Under the pieces are notes generated by a model, which was not told the DNA's origin, made no database searches, and saw nothing but the letters and a program-made list of their open reading frames with translations. A stretch of 60,291 nt of DNA from Grammothele lineata (lineage: Eukaryota > Basidiomycota > Agaricomycetes > Polyporales > Polyporaceae). Made by a program: the position numbers and the translations under genes. The stretch spans positions 1 to 60,291 of the forward strand of contig NDFF03000239.1 of NCBI GenBank assembly GCA_002150815.3. Direction: 5' to 3'. Of this stretch, positions 1,443-55,098 are shown piece by piece; position 1 is the first letter of the stretch, and each line of letters opens with the position of its first letter.

Positions 1443-3184
1443 ATGGCTTCACAGTTGGATACAACGGCGTCGGCCGCGGAAGCAAACAGCTTGTAAGTAG
1501 AGCTATCTTAACATGTTGTTTAGTCACATTCCACTGTGCTTGACGTATATTCCTCAACAGGTATTTAAACACTTACTGCACCGTTGCGGTATCAGGCAAG
1601 CACTGGCACCTAAAAGTAGCATGCCCATGAGAATATCACTGACACACCACTCACTAGCACTCGTCTTCTACGACTGCTTGCTCACGTTAGACGTGGAGAT
1701 CAAGTACTTCTGGACGACGAAGGTCACTGGGGCCTCGGCGCTCTTCATTGCAAATCGATATCTCAACCTCATGTCACAATGCTGGATGAGTGTAGTTGGA
1801 TTATGTCTTCGTACTGCAGCTGTTTCTGAGGTAAAATGACATTTGACTTCAAAGATACATTGCACGGCCTTAGCACCCGATGACAGGAGTGAGTGCACTA
1901 CCTTGTGCTCTTACTGAACTGCTCACGATCCGCAAATTGGAGAGCGTTGTTGTTTAATGGCACAATGTTTGTTCTAAAACTTCTCGCGTATATTTTATGG
2001 GCAGGTTAGGCGCAGTGTTTATCTACCGCGTTCACCAGGGAATGACTTCTCTCTGACAGCGTTTTCCGCGATGCGCACATTGGCGCTCAGTCAATCTCGA
2101 TTCCTCGCTGCCTTAGTCCTCATTCTCTATCTCGTCTCCTCTGGAGTCAATGCGGTGAGCTACAGTACAAATCATCAGCGTGTCACTTCGATACGTTGCC
2201 TGATGTCTCAAGGCATAGTACACTGTAAGCACCTTCCGTGCATTCTATTTCCCCATCTTCGGATGGGCAGTGGGCTCTACTGATTCGGTGGCAGTCGCAA
2301 GAATGTAAGTCAATATGTCCCCTCTTTGGAGTAAACCCTCATTTGTTGTTTATAGCTGTTAGTGACCAAGACGATGCCCTACAGCCATAGCTGACACTAT
2401 TCCGCAGTGGTCATACTCTCAAGATCAACTTTGATGATCTCCGACGGCATCGTGATTGGAACAACGTGGTACAAGCTGTACAGAGGGCGGATCGAGGGTG
2501 TACTTGGAGCCAACACACTCTCCAGCATCTTTCTAGTCGATGGTGAGCACAGTTGTCGTAAATCCATTGTTGGACAGGGATGCTCATCCAATTCCATTGT
2601 CGTGTAGGGTCGATATATTTCATGTATGTTGACAAGCTGCATGAGATACAAACGGCTTATCTGACAGGCGTTCTTCAAAGTATACTTTTCATCCTCAACG
2701 CCCTTCACCTGGTGCTCACGCTTCTTTCGGCGGTATGAGTAGTATGGTTTCCCTTGGAGTCGCATTCATAACACCTCCAATCCAGGCCTTAGATGGTGAA
2801 GAAAAAGTCAGCATCATCACCGCCTTCACCGATCCGTACGTTCCTGTCGAATCTTACCTAAACCATCCTATTGGACTCATCGTGTGATGCAACCTGACGT
2901 CTTCATAAAGTCTAACATCCATCCTTATCTCCCGATTTCTACTCCGCCTCCAAGCCGCAAACAGAGCCTCCGCTCATGCGTCCTCGAGCGCGGACGTCAA
3001 CTCCATCGTGTTCGAGCGCGTCGTCGGGGCCATCGGAGCGTCCATCGGTCCGGAGGACTTTGCCTCGGATGGAGGCGACGACGAGCTTTGGAACGAAGAC
3101 AACACGGATCCCGTGCCTGAGGAAGGAAACGCCGAGGAAGGGAATATCGAAGAAGTGAATCCCGCGCTGGAGGAAGTGGCGTAG
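1443..3184 (+). CDS. DUF6533 family seven-TM protein, copy A
   Basis: Thirteen exons give 343 aa: 1443-1492, 1561-1595, 1658-1830, 1887-1888, 1943-2004, 2060-2154, 2219-2304, 2356-2357, 2408-2542, 2608-2623, 2681-2732, 2786-2835, 2911-3184. The start MASQLD is shared by the paralogues. The DUF6533 signature follows (LLTLDVEIKYFW, then LFIANRYLNL), then about seven hydrophobic segments, MRTLALS after helix 3, and an acidic tail ending EEVA. The family is an integral membrane family of unknown function, common and expanded in basidiomycetes. Two exons are only 2 nt long (GA at 1887, CT at 2356). Intron 2 uses a GC donor (CAG|GCAAGC). All phases close and no internal stop remains. It converges on the NT-C2 gene at 4396. 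The family assignment is firm; the microexons are inferred from frame and from all paralogues. Confidence 0.85.
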
Positions 3185-28415: not shown

Positions 28416-30108
28416 CTATGCCACTTCCTCGCGCTCAGAGCCCTCGTTCTCAGGCGCCACATCCGTACCGGCTCCCTCATCCCAGCACTCATCTACATGT
28501 TCCCCGGAAGCGAAGTTCTCCGGACCGAGAGACGCCCCGATGGACCCAACAACGCGCTCAAACACGATCGAGTCGAGTTCCCTGCTGAACGACACATGAG
28601 CGGACGCTCTGTTGGCGGCTTGAAGGCGGAGTAGGAAGCGGGATATGAGGATGGATGTCAGACTATGCGAGGCAATAAGGTAGGTCAAAGACGAGGACGC
28701 AGAGGTGACATGACAGGAAACGTACGGATCCGTGAAGACGGTGATGACGCTGATGTTGTCCGAGATGATATCTGACGCCTGGATTGTAGGTGTAATGTAC
28801 GATATCCGAAGGAGCGTAACGTAGTGCACGTACCTCCGAGAGAAGCGTGAGCGTAAGGTGCAAGGCATTGAGGATAAATATAACACTTGAGCGTGTGCGT
28901 CAGACAAGCCAATCTTATAAGATGCGAGTTGCATACGTACATGAAGTATATCGATCCTACAAAAGTGGGTGATAACACATGAGTATCCTCGTCCGATAAT
29001 TAAATTGCAACGAGGTACTCACCATCGACCAACAGGATGCTTGAGAGCGTGCTTGCTCCAAGTACGTCATCGATCCTCCCCCTGTACAACCTGTACCATG
29101 TTGTCCCAATCACGACGCTGTCTGCAAGCATCAAAGTCGATCTCGAAAGGATGGTGACTACAGAAGGTCTTCAGTAACTGAAGTGGCTCTCGTTCTATAG
29201 CAACCACTGACGCCTGTAAACAGCAAAATAAGATGGAGAACGTGCTTGCAAGGCAGAGTGACATACAATCTTCCTGCCGCCAACGACTCAGTAGGACCCG
29301 CTGACCATCCCGCAAAGGGAATATAGAGTGCACGAAAGGTGCTTATGTCGTACTATGTACCGAGTGATCAGCGAACATGTAGGGATAGCAGCCCGAGCAC
29401 GTGTGTTGCAACTCACCGCGTTGATTCCAAATGAGAAGAGCGAGAGAATCAATACGAACGCGGCGAGTAATCGAGAGCGACTGAGTGCCAAGGTCCGCAT
29501 CGAGGAGAACGCTGTCCGGCATCGAAAGGAACTATCAACGCACTGAATCGGAGTTGAATACGTCAAGCAACCCACCGGCCCATAGGATATACATCGAAGT
29601 TTTGAGACCGAACTGGATGCACGTCACAAGATATGCCCTGAAATCGGGAGATTTGCGAGGATACGGCAAGAGCGTAAGTAGCGCGCTCACCCCTGTAACA
29701 GAGTCTTGAGTCGGTGTATTACACGAGACGACCAAAACACATCTTACCCTTGCGCTGATAGAAACATAGCACGATTCCGCCACGGTAATCCAGCATTGCG
29801 TCACCAGGTTAAGATATCTGTTCGCAAAAAAGAGCACCAAGGCCCCGGTGACATTCGTCGACCAGAAGTGTTTGACCTCCGCATCAAACGTGAGTAGATG
29901 GTCGTAGAGAACGAGTGCTGATAAGGGAAATATCAATGTGAATATCTCCATACTATCACTGCGGTACTTACCCGATACTACGTTGGTACAGTAATTGTTG
30001 AAAAGCCTGCGGGTATCCGTGAGGCACAATCGTGTTCGGAAGCAAGACGTTCACTTACACGCTCTGTACTTCTGCAATTAATTCTGTCGAGTCAAGCTGT
30101 GAAGCCAT
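28416..30108 (-). CDS. DUF6533 family seven-TM protein, copy B
   Basis: Exons from 5' to 3': 30108-30059, 30006-29972, 29917-29748, 29692-29691, 29637-29576, 29511-29417, 29352-29267, 29213-29212, 29157-29023, 28956-28941, 28885-28834, 28778-28726, 28662-28416; 334 aa with no stops. It starts MASQLDST. The signature is LLTFDAEVKHFW and LFFANRYLNL; the tail is acidic and ends EREEVA. The two 2-nt exons are GG and GC. It differs from the other copies in having a normal GT donor at intron 2. It appears to be a functional family member. All exon lengths match copy A except exons 3, 12 and 13, which differ by whole codons. Confidence 0.85.
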
Positions 30109-34694: not shown

Positions 34695-36439
34695 TTACAC
34701 CACTTCCTCGCGCTCGAGGTTTCCTTCCCCGACGTTCCTCTCCTCAACATCACTTTCCTTAGGCACCGGGTCCATGGTGTCTTCGTTGTCCCAGAGCTCC
34801 ATTTCCCGCTCACCCGAGAGAAAATCCTCCGGACCGATGGGCGCCCCGATAGACCCTATAACACGCTCGAACACGATGGAATTGACGTCCGCGCCGGACG
34901 AAGCATGGTCGACGGCTTGGTTTGCGGCTTGAAGACGGAGTAGAAAGCGGGAGATGAGGATAGATGTTAGACTTTGTAAAGACATCAAGTTGCGTTATAA
35001 TGTGAGTGGAAGCGTGAGGAGGGCGCAATAGCGAACATACGGATAAGTGAAGGCGGTGATAACACTGATGTTATCACCCCCATTTATGGCCTGAATTACA
35101 GATCCTATCAGCGCTACTTCAAGTGTAGGTGACATACTCCTCATACCGCTGAGATAAGAGTGAGCACTAGCTGAAGGGCATTGAGGGTGAAAAGTGTACT
35201 TCGGAGAACAACTGTCAGACGATCTTTTCCGGACCCATGATGCGACCTTTCAACATACATGAAATATATCGACCCTACATGACAACAGTATTGCCGCATG
35301 AGCGTCCTCATCCAATGATGAGGCTACGACAACCGCGCTCACCATCAACCAGAAGGATACTAGAGAACGTATTGACTCCAAATACGCCCTCGACTCGTCC
35401 TCTGTACAGTTTGTACCACGTCGTTCCAATCACGATGCCGTCAGAAAGCATCAAGGCTGATCTTGAGATTATGACCACTGCGGAACAGGCTCAGCTATGG
35501 CTGTAGGGCATCGTCGCATTTTGGCTACTGACAGCTATAAACAACCAATCAGGTCGTATTGAACAGCGAGAGACATGTTGACTTACGTTCTCGACAATGC
35601 TAGTGAATCAGTAGTGCCAGCTGTCCATCCGATGATGGGGACATAGAACGGACGGACGGTGCTTATTTCGTGCTATACCTTCAATCATCAGTCAGCATAT
35701 CCTCATAGGGTCTTCAACATAACTCACCACATTGACTCCAATCGGGACGAGAGAGAGAGTTAAGACGAAGGCAGCGAGGAATTGAGACTGACTCAGCGCC
35801 CAGATCCGCATCGCGGAGAATGCTGTCAGGTAAGATCCATTCCCTCGTGAACACGAAAGTAGATAATGTTGTGTCTAACCTGCCCATGGAAAATACCCCA
35901 GGAGTCCTAGAACGAACTGCGTGGAAACTAGAAACAGCGCTCTGTCCCTTGGAGATCATGAACAGTTCAGTAAGAGTATAAAGAATACCCTCACCCCTGC
36001 ATTTGAGTGTTAATCCAGAGAAACACGTATACCGATTAAATGACATCGTACCTCTGCCCCGAGAGAGACAAGGCATAACCCAACAACTATGATCCAGCAT
36101 TCTGCTGCGAGGTTGATATATCGGTTTACAATGAAGAGCACCGATGCCCCAGTGACCTTCGTCAACCAGATGTACTTGATCTCTGCGTCCAATGTGAGCA
36201 GGTATTCATAAAGCACGAGTGCTAGTGAGCTGTGTTTCAGTAATATTCTGATGAGCCTAATGCTGGTCTGAGCGGCTTGCCTGATACCGCGACGGTGCAG
36301 TAATTGTCAAGAAACCTGCGAAAAAGTATACGTCAGGTACCGTGCCTGTGGGATGCGACTAGACATGATTTCAGGCTGATTTCGCTTACTCGCTCTTCAT
36401 TTCCGCAGTCAACGCCGTTATATCGAGTTGTGAAGCCAT
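34695..36439 (-). CDS. DUF6533 family seven-TM protein, copy C
   Basis: Exons from 5' to 3': 36439-36390, 36315-36281, 36221-36052, 35996-35995, 35941-35880, 35822-35728, 35672-35587, 35534-35533, 35477-35343, 35274-35259, 35198-35147, 35090-35041, 34971-34695; 343 aa with all phases closed. It starts MASQLDITALTAEMKSE. The signature is LLTLDAEIKYIW and LFIVNRYINL. The tail carries an acidic stretch and ends REEVV. The 2-nt exons are GG and CT; the intron 2 donor is GCAAGC. A TGA that appears when intron 4 is read as exon is removed by the microexon model, which supports that model. A TATA-like TTTAAAAG lies about 75 bp upstream. Confidence 0.85.
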
Positions 36440-39678: not shown

Positions 39679-40895
39679 CTACGCCACTTCCCGTAGCTCT
39701 GGGGTTCCTTCCTCGACATTCTTCTCCTCCACGTTTCCGTCCTCGGACACCGGATCCGTGCCGTCTTCGTTGTCCCAAAGCAGATCTTCGCGCTCGTCCA
39801 AGGTGAAGTCCTCCGGACCAATGGATGCTCCGATAGACCCTACAACACGCTCGAACACAATAGTGTTGAGGTCCGCGCTGGAGGACTCATGGGGAGATGC
39901 TCCGCTCGCGGCTTGAAGCCGGAGTAAAAAGCGGGAGACGAGGATGGATGTTATCCTGTATGAAGACAGCGGGATACGTCAAATCTTGAGCCGAGTGGGA
40001 GAGCGTGAGGAAATCGCAATAGGGAACGTACGGATCGGTGAAGAGGGTGACAACACTGAAGTTGCCAATTCCATATAACGCCTGGATTAAAACTCTCATG
40101 AGCGTATTTCCAATGGTCGCGGAGTTCTACTTATACCTCTGAAAGAAGAGTGGATAGCAGGTGGAGGGTGTTGAGGGCAAAAAGAGTCCTTAGGATGGCG
40201 TCTGTCAGACGAGCAGATCCCATATCATGAGCTATGTGCACATACATGAAATATATTGACCCTACACAACAACGGTATTGCGTGAACATCCCCGTCCAAT
40301 GAAGTTACGACGGCTGTGCTCACCATCAATGAGAAGGATGCCCGAAAGTGCGTTGGTGCCAAGTGCACCCTCGATCCGTCCTCTACGCAACTTGTACCAC
40401 GTCGTTCCAACGACGATGATATCGGAAAGTATCAAAGTTGATCTCGAGAGTATGGTGACTGCGGGACAGTGTCAACTATTGCTAGTGAGCGTCACCGCGT
40501 TTTGGCTACTAACGGCTATAGACAACAAATGAGGGCTTATAAAATAGCAGAGAATATATCGACTTACATTCTCGAAACCTCCAGCGACACAGTAGAGCCC
40601 ACTGACCATCCGGAGATGGGGGAATAGTATGCACGGAAGGTGCTTACGTAGTACTATTCCTCGAGATATGAGTGAACATATTCGGATGAGATCCTCGATA
40701 TTTGAGATGCAGCTCACCGCATTCACTCCGAAAGGGACGACGGAGAGAGTAAAGACAACGGCAGCGAGGAATCGCGACCGGCTTAGCGCCAAAGTGCGCA
40801 TCGAAGAGAATGCTGTCAGAGGGAAGTGATTCCTTTAAGGGCGAAGAGCTAGATGAATGGTGAATCTAACCGGCCCATATCATGTACATCAAGAG

Positions 40896-40904
40896 GTGAA
40901 GAAC
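40896..40904. repeat. Target site duplication, left copy (GTGAAGAAC)
   Basis: Identical to 48926-48934 on the other side of the element. Together they restore the 62-nt exon 5 of DUF6533 copy D when one copy is removed. Confidence 0.92.
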
Positions 40905-40917
40905 GGGCACAGGTATT

Positions 40918-41092
40918 TCGACGCGAACGGACGCAAACGGACGCAAACGGACGCGACGGGACGCGACAGGGGACGCGACGGGACGCAGGTGGGGACGCGA
41001 CCGGGACGCGACCGGGACGCGCTGTGGCGTTTGTGGCGCAAGGAGAGACGCGACAGGACGCGACAAGACGCGACGCGACGCGCGCGCACCCA
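40918..41092. repeat. Left minisatellite array, ~10-bp unit (GGGACGCGAC)
   Basis: Degenerate tandem units of GGACGCGAC or GGACGCAAAC, with an internal spacer TGTGGCGTTTGTGGCGC near 41023. The same kind of spacer recurs in the inner right array at 48019 in the same orientation. Confidence 0.85.
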
Positions 41093-41462
41093 GCGCTTAT
41101 TCGTCCTCATACGCTCCTCATACGACGCTAAGCCTGCTCACTACTCATGCCCTCAAATACGCTCTGCCATACGATTCTATGGTTCTATAATAGAGATAAT
41201 GTATACTTCTAACACCCCTGACACTATTTAGACCTTGCTAATTTATCCCCCGCTTTCGATGACGGTCGCAACGTACGTGCGCCGCTTCTCGTCTACTGAG
41301 GTCGCGCGGCATCCGTCCGGGCCGCAGCCCGCCCAAAGTTGGGTTCGATCCGCACGCTTCTATCTGGGAAGCTCTAGTCAGGCTGCCCCTATGAGCGATG
41401 TTGGCAGCCGCTGCCCACTCACCATCCTCGCCCTTGCCCACTACTTCCTTGTTGACTAGCAC

Positions 41463-44400
41463 TCAGTCACCCTTTCGTGCCCGCTTTACTTTAGGTCTCG
41501 GCTCCGGTTTCTTGGCGACCCCTCTCTTCTTACCGCGGCGTGCAGGTCGTCCATCTTGCTCTTGAGCCCCTGATTTCTTCGACAACTGAAACTTGGGCCC
41601 ATGCTGCAGCGAGGTTTAGGTGAGTATATGCGCTCGACTTGGAGAACACTGAGAAGGAGCTTGCCTTGAGCAGTGCCTCTGGATCTTCAGGAGTCCAACC
41701 ATCGTCCCAGTCGCGTGGGGTTTCAAGGTATGGAACCCACCCGTCTTGATGTTCTCCTGCGTCGAGTCCCCATTGATTGTAGCTTGCTTCTCCAGCTTCC
41801 TTGGAGCACACGAAGAGCTTGCACTCAAACGCTCGCAAGCACTCTAAGTCGACGTCCTGTGCGTTTATACTCTCATTTATCCCTTCGACGCTATGAGAGT
41901 TGACTTGTATGTCCCAGGCGCGCTTCATGAGGTCTTCAGCATCTTCTTGAGCGCTCTCCACCTTCAATCTGTGGGCGATCAAGAGTGTTATGGCATGAGC
42001 AACAACATATCGCCCTATCCACCGCTGGTACGTCTCCTTTGCACCCGGGATTCTTGCGTAAATCCAGTTGTGAACCTGAGCTCGAGATGCTATGTCCAGA
42101 TCCCCAACGAAGGACACAACTCCCTTGCGCGCGGCATGAATAGGAGATTGGCGCTGCGCTTCTACGAGGGCAAGGACTGGAACAGACTCGGGTGATAGGT
42201 GCGTGTCCTGGCCTGGCTCCCACTCCATGAGGGCGACGAGAATGCTGATGTGGGGCTGCAGAGCTTCGTTCACTTCCTCAGAGTATGGATGCGCCAGCGG
42301 GTTTGCCAGGATGTCCTCCTCGTCAGGAAGAGAGCAGGCCATCTTCCAATAGCCCAGCTATGAAATATGGTGAGCGCGTCGAATAGAAGCCTTTCAGTAC
42401 TTCTGTGACACTTACTCTGATCTGACGACGACGGCTACGATCATTCTCCAGCTCATCGACAATCCTCTCTTCCGGTATAAGAGCAGTCGGATCAGGTGCG
42501 CCATCCTCATCGTCGTACACACACCCACGCCAAAAACGGACCCTCCAGAATGGCCCCTCAGGCATCTCTTCCCGTTGCAGCAAGCGCACCGGGAACCAGA
42601 AGATTTTACCATGTTGTACTAGCGCTCCCTTCCCTGGACTGTAACACATGTTCGTCAGGATGATGAGTGGTAATTTAGGACTCGCTAGGAGCTTACCCTA
42701 AACGCTGTGACAGAGGGCGCGGACGAAGGGTGCGCTTGCGAGGCTCTTGAGGAACATCGAGTTGACTGATTTAAATGTGAGTCAACAATCTCTCTGTGCA
42801 CAGCGACTCGCATTGATGACTCACGGTAGACCAAGATCCATACCGGAACAGTCGTCGCAGATGAACGTTGCGCCGTGCGGGAGGTTGTTTGCCCGCCCGT
42901 TCCTCTGGCAGGCCAGGTGAGACCATGTCCCACATTCGTCGCACTTGATCGTATTTAACCCTTCAATCATAAGGCGACCGTCCCCTTGAACTCCGCATCT
43001 GCAGCGCACTGGATGCGGGGACATCAGGGCTATGTCATAAACGCTGGAGAGAGGTAGCGGTGGAGGAGTTGAAGGCTGCTGGAACTCTGGTGCGCCATCT
43101 TCAGGCATGTCGCCTTCAGGAGCTGATGTACCGTCTTCAGGGGGAGAACTAGTCGTTTCTCCATCGTCTCTTCCACGACCCGAGGCGGCAGACGAGTGGA
43201 GAGAATGTGCACTGGGGCTAGGGGGTGGTGATTCGACTATGGCTCTTCGGGCTCTATGAAAGTCCACTTCTGGGTACGCGTGTAGAGCCGTAGAAGGACC
43301 GTAATCAATCTCCTCCTGACGATGTCGCGAATCAGGAAGATACCATAACCTTTCGTCGTCTGGTACAACCCGGATATCGCCCCCTGAGAGACTGAGAGTT
43401 GCGCCATGTATGTCGTCAAGAGCATCCGAGGAGATGGATATCATGGGGTGCTCTGTGTGAAGGAGTGCGAGCTGACGTCGGTAGAACAGTTCTTGTGTTG
43501 CGCGCCCTTCCTGAAGGCGATAGACAACCATGCTTGTGCGCCATCCTTTCTTGGGAGGAGACTGGAGCTTGTCGTCTGGTCCAGCAAGATGCGTCTTCAC
43601 CTTGCTGTTCTTCATAGCGACAGCCATTCCTGCGTTCTTGCAGTCGTCATACTCGAGCACTTGACCGCCAGCTGACTTTGGTTGCAGGGCTCGATGTCGA
43701 GATGTGTAGTGTCCACCGCTGCTATATCCGGAGAGAGAGCTTTCGCTCTTCTCCCCGTGGTAGAATGCGCGACTCACTAGTTCATAGACGACTGCAGGAT
43801 TGACGGAGCTGCCTACTGAGGCCTTCGATAGGACGGTAATCTTCTCGGGGTAGTCCCACTCCGTCTCAACTGTTTCGATAATCAGAATGACAGGCAGAGA
43901 TACGAGCGCACAGAGGAGGCTGGTTGTTCCCTGAGGACAACGTTTGATGACCTTCGAGCCGGCTTGAGGGTTGACGTAGTCCTCCGTGTTGCGCCAGCAC
44001 GTTTTCAGAGCTTCCATGCTCGCAGCACGAAGCCCTATCTGAGCCTTGAGCCACAGTGTGAGTTTTCCGCCATAGGTCTTTGAGTCGTTCGAAGTAACCT
44101 GGAAATGGAACCGTGGGGAGAGGCGAGAGGATATACAGTAGTGAGGCTCCCCCAAGGCTTGCTGACCGCCGGAGCAAGTGCGCAGAGAAATCGAATACCC
44201 GTGGAGGTAGGAATAAGCCTTGGAATATACCTCCGGGAACGCTTTCACAGCCTGCTTGAGAATGATGGCTATCCATGGCTATGATGAGTATAATTTAGCA
44301 CGTTTCAGCGACACAATGAAGTAGATAAGAAGCATACTGTGACTGAGTCTTCGCCATTTCGTTGTGCAGCCTTGGCTTTGATGAGGACCTCTCTAAAGGC

Positions 44401-47298
44401 ATCCCGCTGATCGGAGAGCACATCGACGTTGTGATTGACCGTTTTGCCTGCGTACAGCGTGTACCTTGTATCAAGAAGCTGAAAGAGGGAATAGAGTGGC
44501 GTCTGCTGTGTTTGAGGGTTAGCCATAGCGGAGGTGAAACAAGCTGCAAAATCATTGAAGTCCTGGCCAAGCGTGCTCCATAGAATCTCGAGAGCGGTGT
44601 CCAGCCAGCAGGAGTTGTTGGACCAACGATAGCTTGGAACGAGGTGCCCCATAGGGGTTGATTTACTTTTCCCCTTTGGTGCAGTACGCTTGGGTTCTAC
44701 TGGGGCTGCCAGAAGTATATGTTAGAATCATATTGTGAGCCTTACAGCGATCAAACAAACACTAACCGAGCGGTCCACGTCCGGAGAACTTTGCCCCGGA
44801 TGAGAAGTTCAGCTGAGGGCTATGAGTACTTCCTGTGAGCCCATTCCACTCGCTATGATTGACAGAATCGGAGGATTCATTGGAATCAAGAAGACGCTGC
44901 TTATGAGAGCGAGTCAGTGTCCCAGAACGGACGACTGAGAGGAATGTACTCTGCACCGATTGGCTACGGATAGTTTGACGACCACGCTTGTGAGGTTTCC
45001 TAAGCAATGCCCTGATGGTGTCCGGAGGGCGGTCAGGGTTGATGCGCGAGATACGCTGGCTAAGAGAGCTCTTGATACGCTTCCCCCGCGATTTGGAGGT
45101 ACGGAAGGCCTGGGGCGCACGTGAAGGTTTCGTTCGACCTATCGCTTTCTTCCACTTCTTCCACGGCTCAGGATCACCGTAGTCTATCTTTATTCCAGCT
45201 AGAAAACATTCATGAGACCATATGGCCAAAAATATGCAGGGACACTCACCTAGCTTGCTCGCCATCTGCTTGTCATAAAGCTCGACAAAGGCATGAAGCG
45301 CACGGATACCTGCCATGAGATGATGCTGCTGGCCAACTGCCCGATATATCTTCCAATGCATGGCTTCCTCAGCATTCGTCGTGTCTGGCATTGAGTCCCA
45401 CAGAAGTGGATCCATTCGTCGATGTGACTCGAAGATCATACTCGCATGCTCGTCACGAAGCCACCACGAGAGCCAGGGAGCCACAAGAGGGAAACGGGCC
45501 AGTATCTCTTGACCTGCAGCGTGGAAGCTGCTGAGGTCGGATGCATGAACGAGCTGCTGTGTGAGATCACGGAAATCCTGCTCCTCTCCGACAGGGATAA
45601 CTCCACCCATGCGAGCAATGCGAGTTACACCAGCACGGAAATGCTGCTCACAACCCTTCAGCAGCTTTTCTGCTGTGTGACGGAGATCGTCAGGAGTTCG
45701 CGTAGAACCCTCTTGCTGACGGAAGGAGATGAACGCGTTGATATAACCGTTGCGTTCTGCCTCGCTGAAGTCAATGACCTGCAGCATAAACAAAGCAGTT
45801 CATGAGACAGTATTCGTTTGAACGCATATAATCACTGACATTACCGAAATGCGCGTCGTCACTTGTGTCCCAGCCTCGCTTTCTTAACTCAGCAGCAATG
45901 CTTTTGAAGAGTGCGAGGAAATGATAGCGGTAGTGCTCTTGAGACGCACCATTCGTGTAGGAGAGGATCCCTGGGATCCAGCATCGAAGCATAGAGGAGT
46001 ATGCCGAGCTGATAACGAGAAGACAAGTTTTCTGAGACCAGAAGCCGTGTGCTGCGTCGGTGACGATTCCATTGACAGGATCTTCGCGATCTAGATCCCA
46101 TGAGCGCGTCTCCTTCACCAGCTCCGAAAGCATAAGTGGCTGCTTCATGGAAATAACAACAACATCAGGGCCAGCGACAGACTGAACCACAAATCCCTCG
46201 TGCTCAGAGCAGAATGCAATGAACTCATCAAGGTTCAGCGTGCTAGGCGACAATCCAGCAACACCAGTAGCTTGGATGACCTTCTTCCGCTCGTACGTGA
46301 TGCGGCCCTTGTTGATAAGGAGGGGCGAGATGTCTGCAGCTGAACGACCAGGGCCTTGAAGCGTAGGGACGCCAACTTGGAGCTGCAAGGGCCCAGACTT
46401 CGGATTTTGCTGTACGAGTGCCGAAAACTCCTCGCGCTGCTCTTCTGTGAGATGAATGAGCTGCGTTGGGCGAGGGTGGTTGTGAAATCCTTTGTGAGTA
46501 AAGTGTATGCCGTGCCGGTACACTAGAAGAACCTGACGCGCCCCGCAGGGTGTGTGCTGTAAGGATGCACCGCATACACTGCAAGGCTTGCTGAGCTGCT
46601 GAGTAATCTGCGGCCTCTTCGTTTGCGGGCGGACAAGGGCGTCGCAATTTGAGTTATTGCAGGAGATAACCCCCCAGCACCGTCGGTCTGACCGGCGACC
46701 ATCTTGCGGCTCTTCTGCGTCAGGAGAGCCGCGCTTCGAGCCCGAGGTTTGATATGACCAGTGGCAGAGAATCTGTGGGACTCCATTGACGATGGGGAGT
46801 TCGTCGTTTGAGAACGTTCTCTCCATATTACCGTCTGGCCAGCCGTCCCACCCATCTGGGGATGGATTGTTATTAACAGGAGAAGTCGCATTTTGAGGAT
46901 TGCCAAGCTGCTGGTTCTGAAGCGTACTGCCAGACACATTAGAGAGTGGAAGAGAGGAAGGAATGGAGGTGAAAGGCTGAGGGTGGGACTCACTTCTGTG
47001 CTGGTACTAGCACTGAGTTCGACGGAGGGGGCGGAACGATGGTGGATTGCAGAGACATTGAGGAGTTTCCGGAGCGTTGGGTGGGCCGATTGTTCCCTTT
47101 GTTGACGACCTGGTTTCGAGAGGAAGGCTCCGGAACGGCGGGTGTATTGGCCAGCTGTAAGCCGATGAAGTTCCCTAAAAATCGAGAGCATTCAATAAAG
47201 ATATCGCATGACTTGTGCAGTGTGAACATGCCGCTGGAATCATAAATCGGCACCGCTGGGAATGCGTTCAAGGCTGTGAATACGAGAATCAGCCTCAT
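41463..47298 (-). CDS. MULE transposase fused to USP-like peptidase and PHD finger
   Basis: Exons from 5' to 3': 47298-46994, 46926-45840, 45778-45250, 45198-44767, 44705-44338, 44278-42825, 42765-42697, 42638-42416, 42357-41665, 41603-41463; 1,766 aa with every phase closing. Residues about 155-252 form a GCM1/WRKY-type zinc finger (CWGVISCNNSNCDALVRP, PCSVCGASL, HKGFHNH). The DDE triad candidates are Asp about 392 (VTDAAHGFW), Asp about 467 (VIDFSEAERNGY) and Glu about 601 (TTNAEEAMHW). A USP-type peptidase follows, with Cys about 817 (NNSCWLDTALEIL), His about 1097 (GGHYTS) and LEYDDCKNAG. A PHD finger is at about 1335-1388 (CRCGV, CDECGTWSHLAC, CDDC). The C-terminus is Lys/Arg-rich. The last intron has a GC donor. 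The exon 2/3 donor (AAT|GTCAGT) and the start codon are the weakest points. The peptidase may deubiquitinate host proteins; that is inference. Confidence 0.82.
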
Positions 47299-47946
47299 CA
47301 ACCGAAGATGAAACAGAAGAGGCGCATACAGCTGTGCTTTCGGACATCTGACTTCCCAACAGGCGCGTCGTCTTCCGAAGGCGGCTTCTTTTTGAAGTAG
47401 GAGAGGATATGTTTCGCAAAGGCCTTAGAAATTGCGACATTAGTACTAGGCCTTCTTAATCAGGTTCGACATTCAGGGCTAAGCGTACTAGAACCATAAT
47501 GAACTCGGCCTTTCTCGTGCTGTACTGCTGAGTATCTCTCTGTCGAGGAAGATCGAAACGGACGTCCTTCGGTAGGCAATGGGCAATCAACACTTGTGCA
47601 CTCGTTGCACTTTCGTTCAGACAAATCGCAATGCTTGGCATGAGCAGGAACTTTCGAATAGGCAATACATTTCTGATAAGCAAGGAACAGAGTATCTGGG
47701 AGAAAGATGAGCGATAGTCTCTTTAGTTTAAAAGCATAGACATACATTTATGTGGCGCGCAAGACCGGTCGCTGCAGAGATTATCCTACGCGTCGGATAT
47801 TTAATGAAGCGTATGGAGGCATATGAAACGATAAGGACGTACCTCCAATACGTCCGGGGGATTGGAACACGGAACAGGAAGTACTACAGCTTGAGCGACC
47901 TGTTAGTGACAAGGCTTGACGCGGTATGCGGAAGGGACTCGAGTAA
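47299..47946. other. Upstream region of the transposase gene inside the element
   Basis: Contains minus-strand openings such as KHILSYFKKKPPSEDD (about 47415-47365) and a Cys-rich reading (HAKHCDLSERKCNECTSVDC at about 47645-47590) that might be extra 5' exons or a captured fragment. No splice chain to the main gene could be fixed. Confidence 0.4.
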
Positions 47947-48258
47947 ACGCGACGCACACGGACGCGACGCGAGACGCGACAAGACGCGACAAGACGCGCG
48001 CGGACGCGGCCCGGACGCAATGTGGCGTTTAGTGGCGCTCGGAGACGCGCGCGGACGCGCGGCGGGACGCAGACGGGACGCGACGGGACGCGACGGGACG
48101 CGATAAGGACGCGACGGGACGCGACACGGACGCGACACGGACGCGACAGGACGCGACAGGACGCACAGCGGGACGCGACACGGACGCGCGTGGACGCACA
48201 GCGGGACGCGACAGGACGCGACAGGACGCGTTACAGGACGCGACGAGACGCGTCGCGG
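47947..48258. repeat. Inner right minisatellite array (GACGCG units)
   Basis: About 310 bp of 9-10-bp units (GGACGCGAC and variants). They are in direct, not inverted, orientation relative to the left array. The spacer TGTGGCGTTTAGTGGCGC at about 48019 is shared. Confidence 0.85.
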
Positions 48259-48785
48259 GGGCAAGTATAGATATGACAAATGCTGAGCAGATCATTTACG
48301 GGAGCAAAAGTGTTCAGTAATATAGCTCGTAGTATACTTGAACGACAGGGTAAGAGGTGGGGATGATCAAGCCTCACGGGACAGCACACAGGGATACTAG
48401 CGAAAGGTCAGTGCATCTGCGGCCTACCTTCAATCTCATCTCAGACTGGTATCCTATCACTTCCAAACCTATTTCCCAGAGTGAGTAATAGCATACTGTG
48501 GACACAGATTATGTTTGCTTCACACCTGCTGCGCTGAGAGACAGCGAATTATTAGGTTCGTGCTCAACGAGATCAGTATCACCATTATAGGCGCTAATGC
48601 TAGCAAGCAGTCAGCATCGACCTCCAACTCATTAACAATTAATGTACCACGTATTCATGCGTAACAACAGCGTGCATTATAGCAACGTGATGCAAAATAC
48701 AAAGCAGTAGGATACATCTGGGGTAATACGTAGCACAATAGGTATGAGACGCAAGCACGACGCAGAAGAAGAGTGGGCGTCTGTG

Positions 48786-48925
48786 CCCAGGAGGGACGCG
48801 ACAGGACGCGACGGGACGCGAACGGGCGCGGAAAAGTAGTGGGCGCTTGTGTCGCGTCTCTTGTCGCGTCTCGTCGCGTCTCGTCGCGTCCCGTTGCGTC
48901 CCGTTGCGTCGAATTCCTTTTGCCC
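48786..48925. repeat. Terminal right end with inverted GACGCG / CGCGTC mini-arrays
   Basis: A short GACGCG array (48793-48830) faces a CGCGTC array (48850-48911) around a ~20-bp spacer, so the element tip can fold back on itself. The final bases give the inverted tip ending at 48925. Confidence 0.8.
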
Positions 48926-48934
48926 GTGAAGAAC
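48926..48934. repeat. Target site duplication, right copy (GTGAAGAAC)
   Basis: Partner of 40896-40904. Confidence 0.92.
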
Positions 48935-49449
48935 GGATTGCGTGTGATCGAAAAGCAATGCCCTGTAGTCTTACATGTGTAAGAGGTTCAGCCAGAGCGT
49001 GAAGAGTGACCCACCCCTGCAGCTGAAATGTATGCCAGATTATCATAGCTTATGACAAATCGATCGGTACCTCTGCAGTGGAAGACGTAGCATTTATCCC
49101 AATAATCCCGAAGCAGCATTGGGCTACGAGGTTGAGGTATCTGTTTGAGATAAATAGTACTAAGGCTCCGGTGGTCTTCGTCGACCAGAAGTACTTGACC
49201 TCCGCATCGAATGTGAGCAAGTAGTCATAGAGAATTAGCACTTTTGGGCCATACGTCAATGTGATCCCGCGGATATTTCCAAGTTGAAGTGCTCGCCTGA
49301 TGCTGCAATGATACAATAGTTCTCGAGAGTCCTGAAGAAGAGTATATGTCAGTCAACACGATATTGTGACTGACACGCTGCTCAATGAGGGCCACTTACC
49401 AGCTTTGTATTTCCGCAGCTAACGCTGTTGCGTCTGCCTGCGAGGCCAT

Positions 49450-53349: not shown

Positions 53350-55098
53350 CTACACCAGCTCGAGCTCCTCGCGCTCGGAAGTCGCTTCCTCAACATTCTT
53401 CCCCTCAGAGCCTCCTTGCTCCAGTGCCGTAGCCGTGTGGTCTTCCTCATCTTGGAGCCCGTCAGAGCCGTTGAAGGTCTCCGTACCGATGGACGCCCCA
53501 ATGGCGCCCACAACTCGCGCAAACACAACGGAGTCGAGATTGACGCTTGAAGATGTGTAGACGGACGCGCTATCTGCGGCTTGAAGGCGGAGTAAGAAGC
53601 GGTAGACTAGGATGGACGTCAAACTGCGCGAGATGATGGGGCAGCGTTAGGTTGTGGGTTACAAGGGAGAGTGAACGGGCCTGAGGTACAACGAGGAACG
53701 TACGGATTAGTGAGGCTCGTGACAATGCTGAGATTGTCTTCGCCCAGATTTGACGCCTAGATTGGGGGTCTAATGAATACGGTTCCAAGGAAATGGCAGG
53801 GGCTCCTACGCTCTTCCGAGAGAGTGAAAATCAGATGAAGGGCGTTGAGAACGAGGAGAGTACTTCGGAGAATACTCGTCAGACAAGCTAGTGCCATCTC
53901 ATGCAATATGTTCCCATACATGAAATATATCGACCCTGCGCAAGAGTGATAGTAAATGAGCATCCGTGTCCAAGAATCAGACTGATGGGACTCACCATCG
54001 ACCAGGAGGATATTCGAGAGCGCGTTGCCTTCAAGCAAACCCCCGATCTTTCCTTTGTGTAACTTGTACCACGTAGTTACAACGACGATTGCGTCTGAAA
54101 GCATCAGGGCTGATCTTGCCAGGATGGTTACTGCGGAACATTCTGAGTAACGCAAGCGGGACTTAATCTCATATTTGGTACTAACAGCTGTTGAATCAAC
54201 GACGAGTCAGGGCTAGAAATATTTAGCGCGAAACGTAGTGACTTACTTTCTAGCATCTGCTAAGGTCTCGACGGGACCCGCCCCCCATCCGAAGACGGGG
54301 ACATAAAATGTGCCGAAGGTATGAAGAAGGTACTATATGTCGAGTATCTCATCAACGGATTTGGAAAACACTGAGACCACTGGTATTTTAACCTACCGCA
54401 TTGGTCCCGAAAGGGACAAGCGAGAGAATCAACACCAAGGCGGCGAGGAGTCGAGAACGACTTAGTGCCAAGGTACGCATTGCAGAAAATGCTGTCCAAA
54501 AGTGTTAATGTGACAATGAGAGAACAGATCAATGTTGCGACTAACCTGCCCATGGAATGTACATCAAAACGCTCAGAGTCCATTGTGCACGCGCGAACAG
54601 GAGCGCTCTGTGGTCTCGAAATTTTGAAGGGTTCGGGGAGAGCATAGATAGTGACTTACCCCTGCCATTGAACTGTGAGCCGGAGTAACATATTCCATGA
54701 TAAACTCAAGTCGTACCTCTGCACTCAAGAATATAACGCTCGCTTGAATAGCCACGAGACAGCCTTCTGCTACGAGTACGAGATATCTAGTTGCGATGAA
54801 GAGCACCGAGGCCCCCGTGACCTTCGTGGTCCAGAAGTACTTGACCTCCGCACCGAATGTGAGCAGATAGTCATACAGCACGAATGCTGGAGACTCATAT
54901 GTAACTTAGTTGTGAAGAGACTTATCCCCAGTATGAGGTGCTTGCCTGACGCTGCGATACCGCAGTAGTTCCCGAGAAGCCTGACAACGGGTATAGCTTA
55001 GGAAACGTTTGACTCGGCCCAGAACACTGTATAGCTGAGGCGACTTACCCGCTGTTAATTTCTGCGGCCAGCGCCGCTGCGTCAATTCGCGAGGCCAT
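53350..55098 (-). CDS. DUF6533 family protein, copy E (one damaged splice donor)
   Basis: Exons from 5' to 3': 55098-55049, 54980-54946, 54886-54717, 54661-54660, 54607-54546, 54491-54397, 54332-54247, 54187-54186, 54130-53996, 53935-53920, 53862-53811, 53756-53704, 53623-53350; 343 aa if exon 11 keeps its usual 52 nt. It starts MASRIDAA. The signature is LLTFGAEVKYFW and LFIATRYLVL; the tail ends ELELV. The 2-nt exons are GG and CT; the intron 2 donor is GCAAGC. The donor of the 52-nt exon reads GAG|CGTAGG, so the GT sits one base late. Using it would shift the frame, so this copy may be turning into a pseudogene. Confidence 0.7.

Follow-up and report, generated by a model that had tools for sequence, protein, structure and literature searches.

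The 60,291-nucleotide window analyzed here (positions 1–60,291 of contig NDFF03000239.1 from the polypore Grammothele lineata) contains five copies, A to E, of a gene for a DUF6533 protein. Copy A (1443–3184, plus strand) is a complete gene that ends in a stop codon, and its product matches Pfam DUF6533 (PF20151) at 51.6 bits, above the curated cut-off of 24.1. The best database match of copy A is a Lentinus tigrinus protein with 35% identity, while a profile of the paralogues shares 38–47% identity with its best five database rows, which come from Lentinus, Polyporus, Earliella, and Cerioporus. Gene models were obtained by a base-by-base reading of the five copies and by a purpose-written spliced profile alignment in which an exon could have any length. 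Copies A, B, C, and E have full open reading frames and a common plan of 13 exons, with sizes of 50, 35, 170 (173 in A), 2, 62, 95, 86, 2, 135, 16, 52–53, and 34–53 nt followed by a long last exon. Exons 4 and 8 of this plan are predicted to consist of two nucleotides each; we refer to their positions as J1 and J2.

In copy A, exon 3 (1658–1830) ends at the boundary between codons 86 and 87. It is followed by a 56-nt intron (1831–1886), the predicted exon 4 with the sequence GA (1887–1888), a 54-nt intron (1889–1942), and the 62-nt exon 5 (1943–2004). The second predicted 2-nt exon, CT (2356–2357), is located between a 51-nt intron (2305–2355) and a 50-nt intron (2358–2407), which separate it from the 86-nt exon 7 (2219–2304) and the 135-nt exon 9 (2408–2542), respectively. 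The two 2-nt exons were identified by splice scoring, spliced alignment, and direct letter check, and exons 3, 7, and 9 by spliced alignment. Spliced alignment also places a third small exon of 16 nt in copy A (exon 10, 2608–2623), and this exon is common to copies A–E and to many paralogues. Exon 2 is followed by a GC donor (GCAAGC or GCGAGC) in copies A (at 1596), C, D, and E, and by GTAAGT in copy B.

The other four copies lie on the minus strand. Spliced alignment and letter check indicate that copies B (28416–30108), C (34695–36439), and E (53350–55098) are complete, and the same three kinds of evidence as in copy A locate their predicted 2-nt exons: GG (29691–29692) and GC (29212–29213) in B, GG (35995–35996) and CT (35533–35534) in C, and GG (54660–54661) and CT (54186–54187) in E. 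Copy D is divided into a 5' part (48926–49449; spliced alignment) and a 3' part with the stop codon (39679–40895; spliced alignment and letter check), which contain GG (49015–49016) and CC (40514–40515), respectively, as predicted by spliced alignment and letter check. An 8-kb insertion (40907–48925) interrupts exon 5 of copy D, and for this reason the two sites are 8.5 kb apart; the coordinate 40514 proposed for the second site by a first-pass annotation of the window is correct, although far from the first. The pieces of exon 5 beside the insertion are 37 and 25 nt long and add up to 62 nt, the size seen in the other copies. The insertion carries terminal inverted repeats with arms of 77 nt (79%), and an 11-bp sequence, CCGTTCTTCAC, is duplicated at the target site (48926–48936 and 40896–40906). 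Of four open frames scanned within it, two show weak similarity to GCM and PHD domains, with scores that stay under the Pfam cut-off in both cases. The insertion looks like a DNA transposon.

The first-pass annotation had placed one 2-nt exon at each of ten AG/NN/GT sites, two per copy. The two bases are present at all ten coordinates, and spliced alignment puts 2-nt exons at these positions in copies A, B, C, and E and in both halves of D. The accompanying statement that each gap contains a single such site in all five copies is incorrect, as AGNNGT occurs twice in each gap of copy B. The annotation had also argued that the frame can be kept only by adding two nucleotides. The 2-nt model is indeed the best one, but in-frame models without a 2-nt exon exist. 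At J1, the closest competitor of whatever type falls 7 (E), 9 (A), 14 (C), or 18 (B) bits short of the 2-nt model, and the best model with a single intron 14 (C and E) or 24 (B) bits short, copy A having no such model. At J2, the closest competitor in the window copies trails by 13–43 bits. For J1 of copy E, a 13-nt middle exon scores 7 bits below the 2-nt exon, and a single 98-nt intron with exon 3 extended by 11 nt scores 14 bits below; an earlier, cruder scoring had favored a single intron with a weak donor for this junction and for several other loci. Read-through of the J1 gap in copy B leaves the frame open but scores −65 bits versus 15 bits for the 2-nt model, and was rejected.

DUF6533 genes are abundant in the 41.8-Mb, 252-contig genome, with at least 150 matches scored, five of them in the window. 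They form a large family, many members of which lie near one another on a shared contig. Of 150 scored loci, 69 were modeled. These were chosen non-randomly, starting with the best matches, continuing through contigs C2 to C60 by number, and ending with four loci having a long open frame. Specifically, 74 loci were entered, two duplicates (L006 and L007) were removed, six fell under the score threshold (L002 and L003, both of which had been read on the wrong strand, C5:49734, C2:105708, C2:85380, and C42:223849), C50:43025 was left out, and L049–L052 were added. At each locus, models with no, one, or two introns were built between fixed anchors and scored with splice-signal matrices trained on 190 introns at other positions of the family. 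The profile used in the survey and the copy A protein used as query in the database search keep 19 false columns and residues, respectively, derived from read-through of the intron after the 16-nt exon; these positions come after both J1 and J2.

At J1, the top-scoring splice model has a 2-nt exon in 49 of 68 evaluable loci; twelve others are fused, having the two bases at the start of the next exon, and seven are neither. At J2, a 2-nt exon is best in 52 of 64 evaluable loci, an exon of 8 nt in two, one of 14 nt in one, and a single intron in nine, with anchors being unusable in five further loci of the 69. Among the 63 loci evaluable at both junctions, 36 have a 2-nt exon at both, and these 36 are diverged from one another (pairwise identity 26–69%, median 35%). 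The margin of the 2-nt model over the best other model has a median of 16–17 bits and is smaller than 5 bits in two loci at J1 and three at J2. The introns that flank the 2-nt exons have median lengths of 55–58 nt. Their GT-AG and branch signals are ordinary upstream of the 2-nt exon and ~2 bits weaker downstream (median scores upstream and downstream, 18.0 and 16.2 bits at J1, and 18.8 and 16.9 bits at J2; ordinary introns, 18.7 bits, n = 190).

Because the profile was partly trained on models with 2-nt exons, the survey was controlled in two ways. With the junction columns masked, the 2-nt model was best in 48/68 loci at J1 and 52/64 at J2, and with a profile made from 12 foreign proteins alone, in 49/68 and 52/64. 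Dinucleotide shuffles of the inner gap matched the observed score in 4 of 1960 cases at J1 and 1 of 2080 at J2. The 2-nt exons at AG/NN/GT sites thus exceed what chance would produce. Two translated 2-nt exons, as claimed for the window copies, are the predicted best splice model both there and across the surveyed family, and this family-wide survey constitutes far stronger evidence than the five window copies.

Several loci depart from the common pattern. The top J1 model is a single intron in C50:32466 and C50:21514, by 5 and 1 bits, respectively. In L019 (C28:199627), a 4-nt exon came out best at J1; here, a good acceptor is followed by AG and then by GC instead of GT, and the locus possibly has a 2-nt exon with a GC donor. 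In L045 (C50:157217), the best J2 model is a single 129-nt intron with a shifted phase, and this may be a copy without its 2-nt exon in which the shift is compensating. The longer small exons at J2 measure 14 nt in L031 (C42:205040) and 8 nt in L014 (C5:43539) and L048 (C60:373839). All three lengths equal 2 modulo 3, an assignment that is tentative in these divergent loci, and the tiny exon may have grown there by whole codons. When the seven left-over loci were re-run, a 2-nt exon was best at J1 in two (C50:43025 and C5:49734) and not in three, with two being unevaluable, and at J2 in three (L002, L003, and C50:43025), with four being unevaluable.

The reading frame bears on whether the two bases are translated. 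Omission of either 2-nt exon breaks the frame in the loci that have it, and retention of the whole gap brings an in-frame stop in 37/49 loci at J1 and 48/52 at J2, and read-through was rejected on this basis as well. Without the 2-nt exons the protein would be out of frame, and on this ground they are predicted to be included by splicing and translated. The J1 bases would fill positions one and two of codon 87, which mostly encodes Gly or Ser. At J2, one base would complete codon 168 and the other would begin codon 169. The base in the third codon position is A, G, C, or T in 19, 17, 12, and 4 loci, respectively (n = 52, one in another phase), and the base in the first codon position is T or C in 43/52. 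Residue 169 is Leu in 23/52 loci, Phe in 16/52, and Val, Ile, or Met in 8/52, together 47/52. Besides the frame, three observations count toward translation: this behavior by codon position at J2, the tentative longer J2 exons with lengths of 2 modulo 3, and the fused relatives at J1 described below. The first-pass annotation had noted that the second 2-nt exon contributes to a leucine codon in all five window copies and had taken this as co-variation expected only of translated bases. This argument is not supported: Leu occurs at J2 in 22 of 51 loci versus 19.7 by permutation (p = 0.14, not significant), and random pairing would give Leu in all five window copies about one time in ten.

Relatives without one of the flanking introns provide a view of the same two bases inside a larger exon. 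The 12 loci fused at J1 have one intron of 54–73 nt followed by an exon that opens with the two bases; in those that retain the following intron, this exon is 64 nt long, which is exactly 2 + 62. For example, a fused locus reads GACAAG-intron-ACATGC, as compared with GACGAG-intron-AG-intron-ATGTGG in the 2-nt locus C42:185890. No paralogue fused at J2 was found among the surveyed loci. In a quick tree of 64 proteins, made with the junction columns left out and having many weak branches and no outgroup, the fused loci need four changes, three of them forced by the starred branches. L049, a 2-nt locus, falls inside the fused clade and is not explained by plain repeated loss. We infer that the downstream J1 intron was probably lost several times and that the two-exon state is probably ancestral among these paralogues.

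We also looked at database DUF6533 proteins of other species for signs of missed 2-nt exons. Among genome-annotated proteins that span J2, 69 of 94 have an indel within a nine-column window over it, as compared with 17/96 at N108 and 11/93 at N272, which are ordinary intron positions. Indels are nevertheless not specific to J2, since two other ordinary positions gave 24/97 (N214) and 79/97 (N140), and J1 gave 68/92. Our own models, examined with slightly wider windows, have indels in 7/45 cases at J2 and 32/45 at J1; they are no independent control at J2 because they assume the 2-nt exons. Indels at J1 were dropped as evidence because the loop there is of variable length in any case. A further fourteen proteins are encoded on short contigs, each with one uninterrupted reading frame, which in so intron-rich a family suggests that they derive from cDNA; one short-contig protein, P0093, has the appearance of genomic DNA in which an intron was retained. 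The cDNA-like proteins are disturbed at J2 in 5/14 cases versus 69/94 for the annotated ones (Fisher p = 0.01), and are more often disturbed than the annotated ones at N108 (4/12) and N272 (5/11). Within one search, the difference at J2 is not significant (5/14 versus 23/35, p = 0.11). Automatic gene-finders are expected to miss the 2-nt exons, and the J2 indels appear to follow the pattern expected from such omissions, which is not proof of 2-nt exons in those species.

We consider it very likely, with a probability of about 0.9 on the genomic evidence, that many DUF6533 genes in this genome have two constitutive 2-nt coding exons, each between introns of ~55 nt that are removed one after the other. 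The flanking introns would be recognized as units, that is, by intron definition. Their removal would be sequential, since just two bases separate the AG that ends one from the GT that opens the next, and the upstream intron, whose signals are slightly stronger, would probably go first and the downstream intron after it. Inclusion would be the default, constitutive outcome because the intron removed on skipping would exceed almost every other intron of the family in length (at least 101 nt at J1 and at least 103 nt at J2, the longest of 190 ordinary introns being 101 nt). Exons this small had been presented in the first-pass annotation as a challenge to exon-definition models. Their size stands as a prediction, but the challenge is milder than claimed because introns of ~55 nt can be recognized as units. 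The same considerations bear on the suggestion that the 2-nt exons act as a regulated frame switch, in which inclusion gives the membrane protein and skipping leads to truncation or decay. Skipping would indeed produce a premature stop in all modeled cases (47/47 at J1 and 52/52 at J2), as such a switch would have it. The length that the skipped intron would need relative to the ordinary maximum, along with splice signals around the 2-nt exons that are close to ordinary strength, makes regulation of this kind improbable.

Two further explanations dispense with the 2-nt exons altogether. A single longer intron could fill each gap if exon 3 or exon 7 were lengthened or shortened at an alternative donor or acceptor. 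Among the window copies, B, C, and E each admit such an in-frame model at J1, and at J2 copy A does so as well as these three; as described above, a single intron is the top model in two loci at J1 and nine at J2. In the 2-nt loci, such models lie a median of 16–17 bits behind (taken as the margin over the best other model), and in the window copies they call for introns of 66–125 nt, mostly near or above 100 nt, against the ordinary maximum of 101 nt (n = 190). At J1, moreover, the two bases are coding in the 12 fused paralogues, and we regard the single intron as quite unlikely to account for the gaps in general. The other explanation is a stwintron, an intron nested in a splice element of another, by which everything between the exons would be removed. 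Stwintrons are already known in fungi, and two adjacent introns within ~110 nt look alike on paper in either case, being closely packed and removed in sequence. The difference is that no coding bases remain between the parts of a stwintron, while the 2-nt loci would keep two. Complete removal leaves the frame of these loci 2 nt wrong, and the fused paralogues keep both bases at J1, so that a stwintron is barely credible here. The model of two included 2-nt exons is the one we carry forward.

Exons of one or two nucleotides are, to our knowledge, documented in few genes. The 1-nt exon of CYP621A in Fusarium is described by its authors as the first single-nucleotide exon in a fungal gene (PMC12940212). 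As predicted for the DUF6533 genes, the CYP621A exon is shorter than a codon, is flanked by two short introns, and is needed for the frame; it lies in a conserved motif, is wrong in nearly all gene models, and was checked against an intronless relative (PMC12940212). CYP621A differs in that a single exon of 1 nt is described, for orthologues from one ascomycete genus and with RNA reads; the predictions here concern a large basidiomycete family in which a gene would have two exons of 2 nt. Closer in phylogeny, P450 genes of the polypore relative Phanerochaete chrysosporium have micro-exons, several of them in one conserved motif; the example given is 8 nt long and belongs to a different gene family (PMC12940212; PMC1184071). 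In plants, single-nucleotide exons occur in APC11 and VPS55 (PMC4674806, PMC8831610), and intron definition is thought to be the more plausible model for the Arabidopsis 1-nt exon (PMC4674806). The plant exons are conserved and have been misannotated, and monocot APC11 has the base inside a larger exon, comparable to the loci fused at J1 here. Unlike the DUF6533 exons, those of APC11 and VPS55 are found in plants, one per gene, are 1 nt in length, and have been verified by RNA.

The DUF6533 family includes Snowball (snb1), which is required for fruiting-body patterning and is, like the window copies, a predicted membrane protein with this domain (PMC10949477). The accessible portions of that report have no mention of a small exon in snb1. 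Among the matches listed in the open-licence literature, there is no report of 2-nt exons in DUF6533 genes or of a two-nucleotide exon under that phrase. Exons shorter than a codon are known as such. As far as these searches show, what is new here is that genes of a basidiomycete are predicted to have two 2-nt exons each, across dozens of diverged copies, and that some relatives of these genes are without one of the flanking introns.

A broader proposal is that the pair of 2-nt exons predates the expansion of the DUF6533 family in polypores and that at least half of the 100 or more copies have retained it as a splicing gate. Both exons would then be needed for a functional protein, and splicing fidelity would set the output of a family that is misread in databases. 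We view this proposal as speculative and, on balance, unlikely. The 2-nt exons themselves would offer one genome with dozens of natural replicates of two minimal exons. Along with the fused 2 + 62-nt relatives and the possible 8- and 14-nt versions, they would allow direct tests of how small an exon can be, which intron is removed first, and how introns are lost. They would also be a simple reason for the frequent disturbance of database DUF6533 proteins at one place, and may thus be of practical value for annotating the genomes of mushrooms and for studies of the Snowball family.
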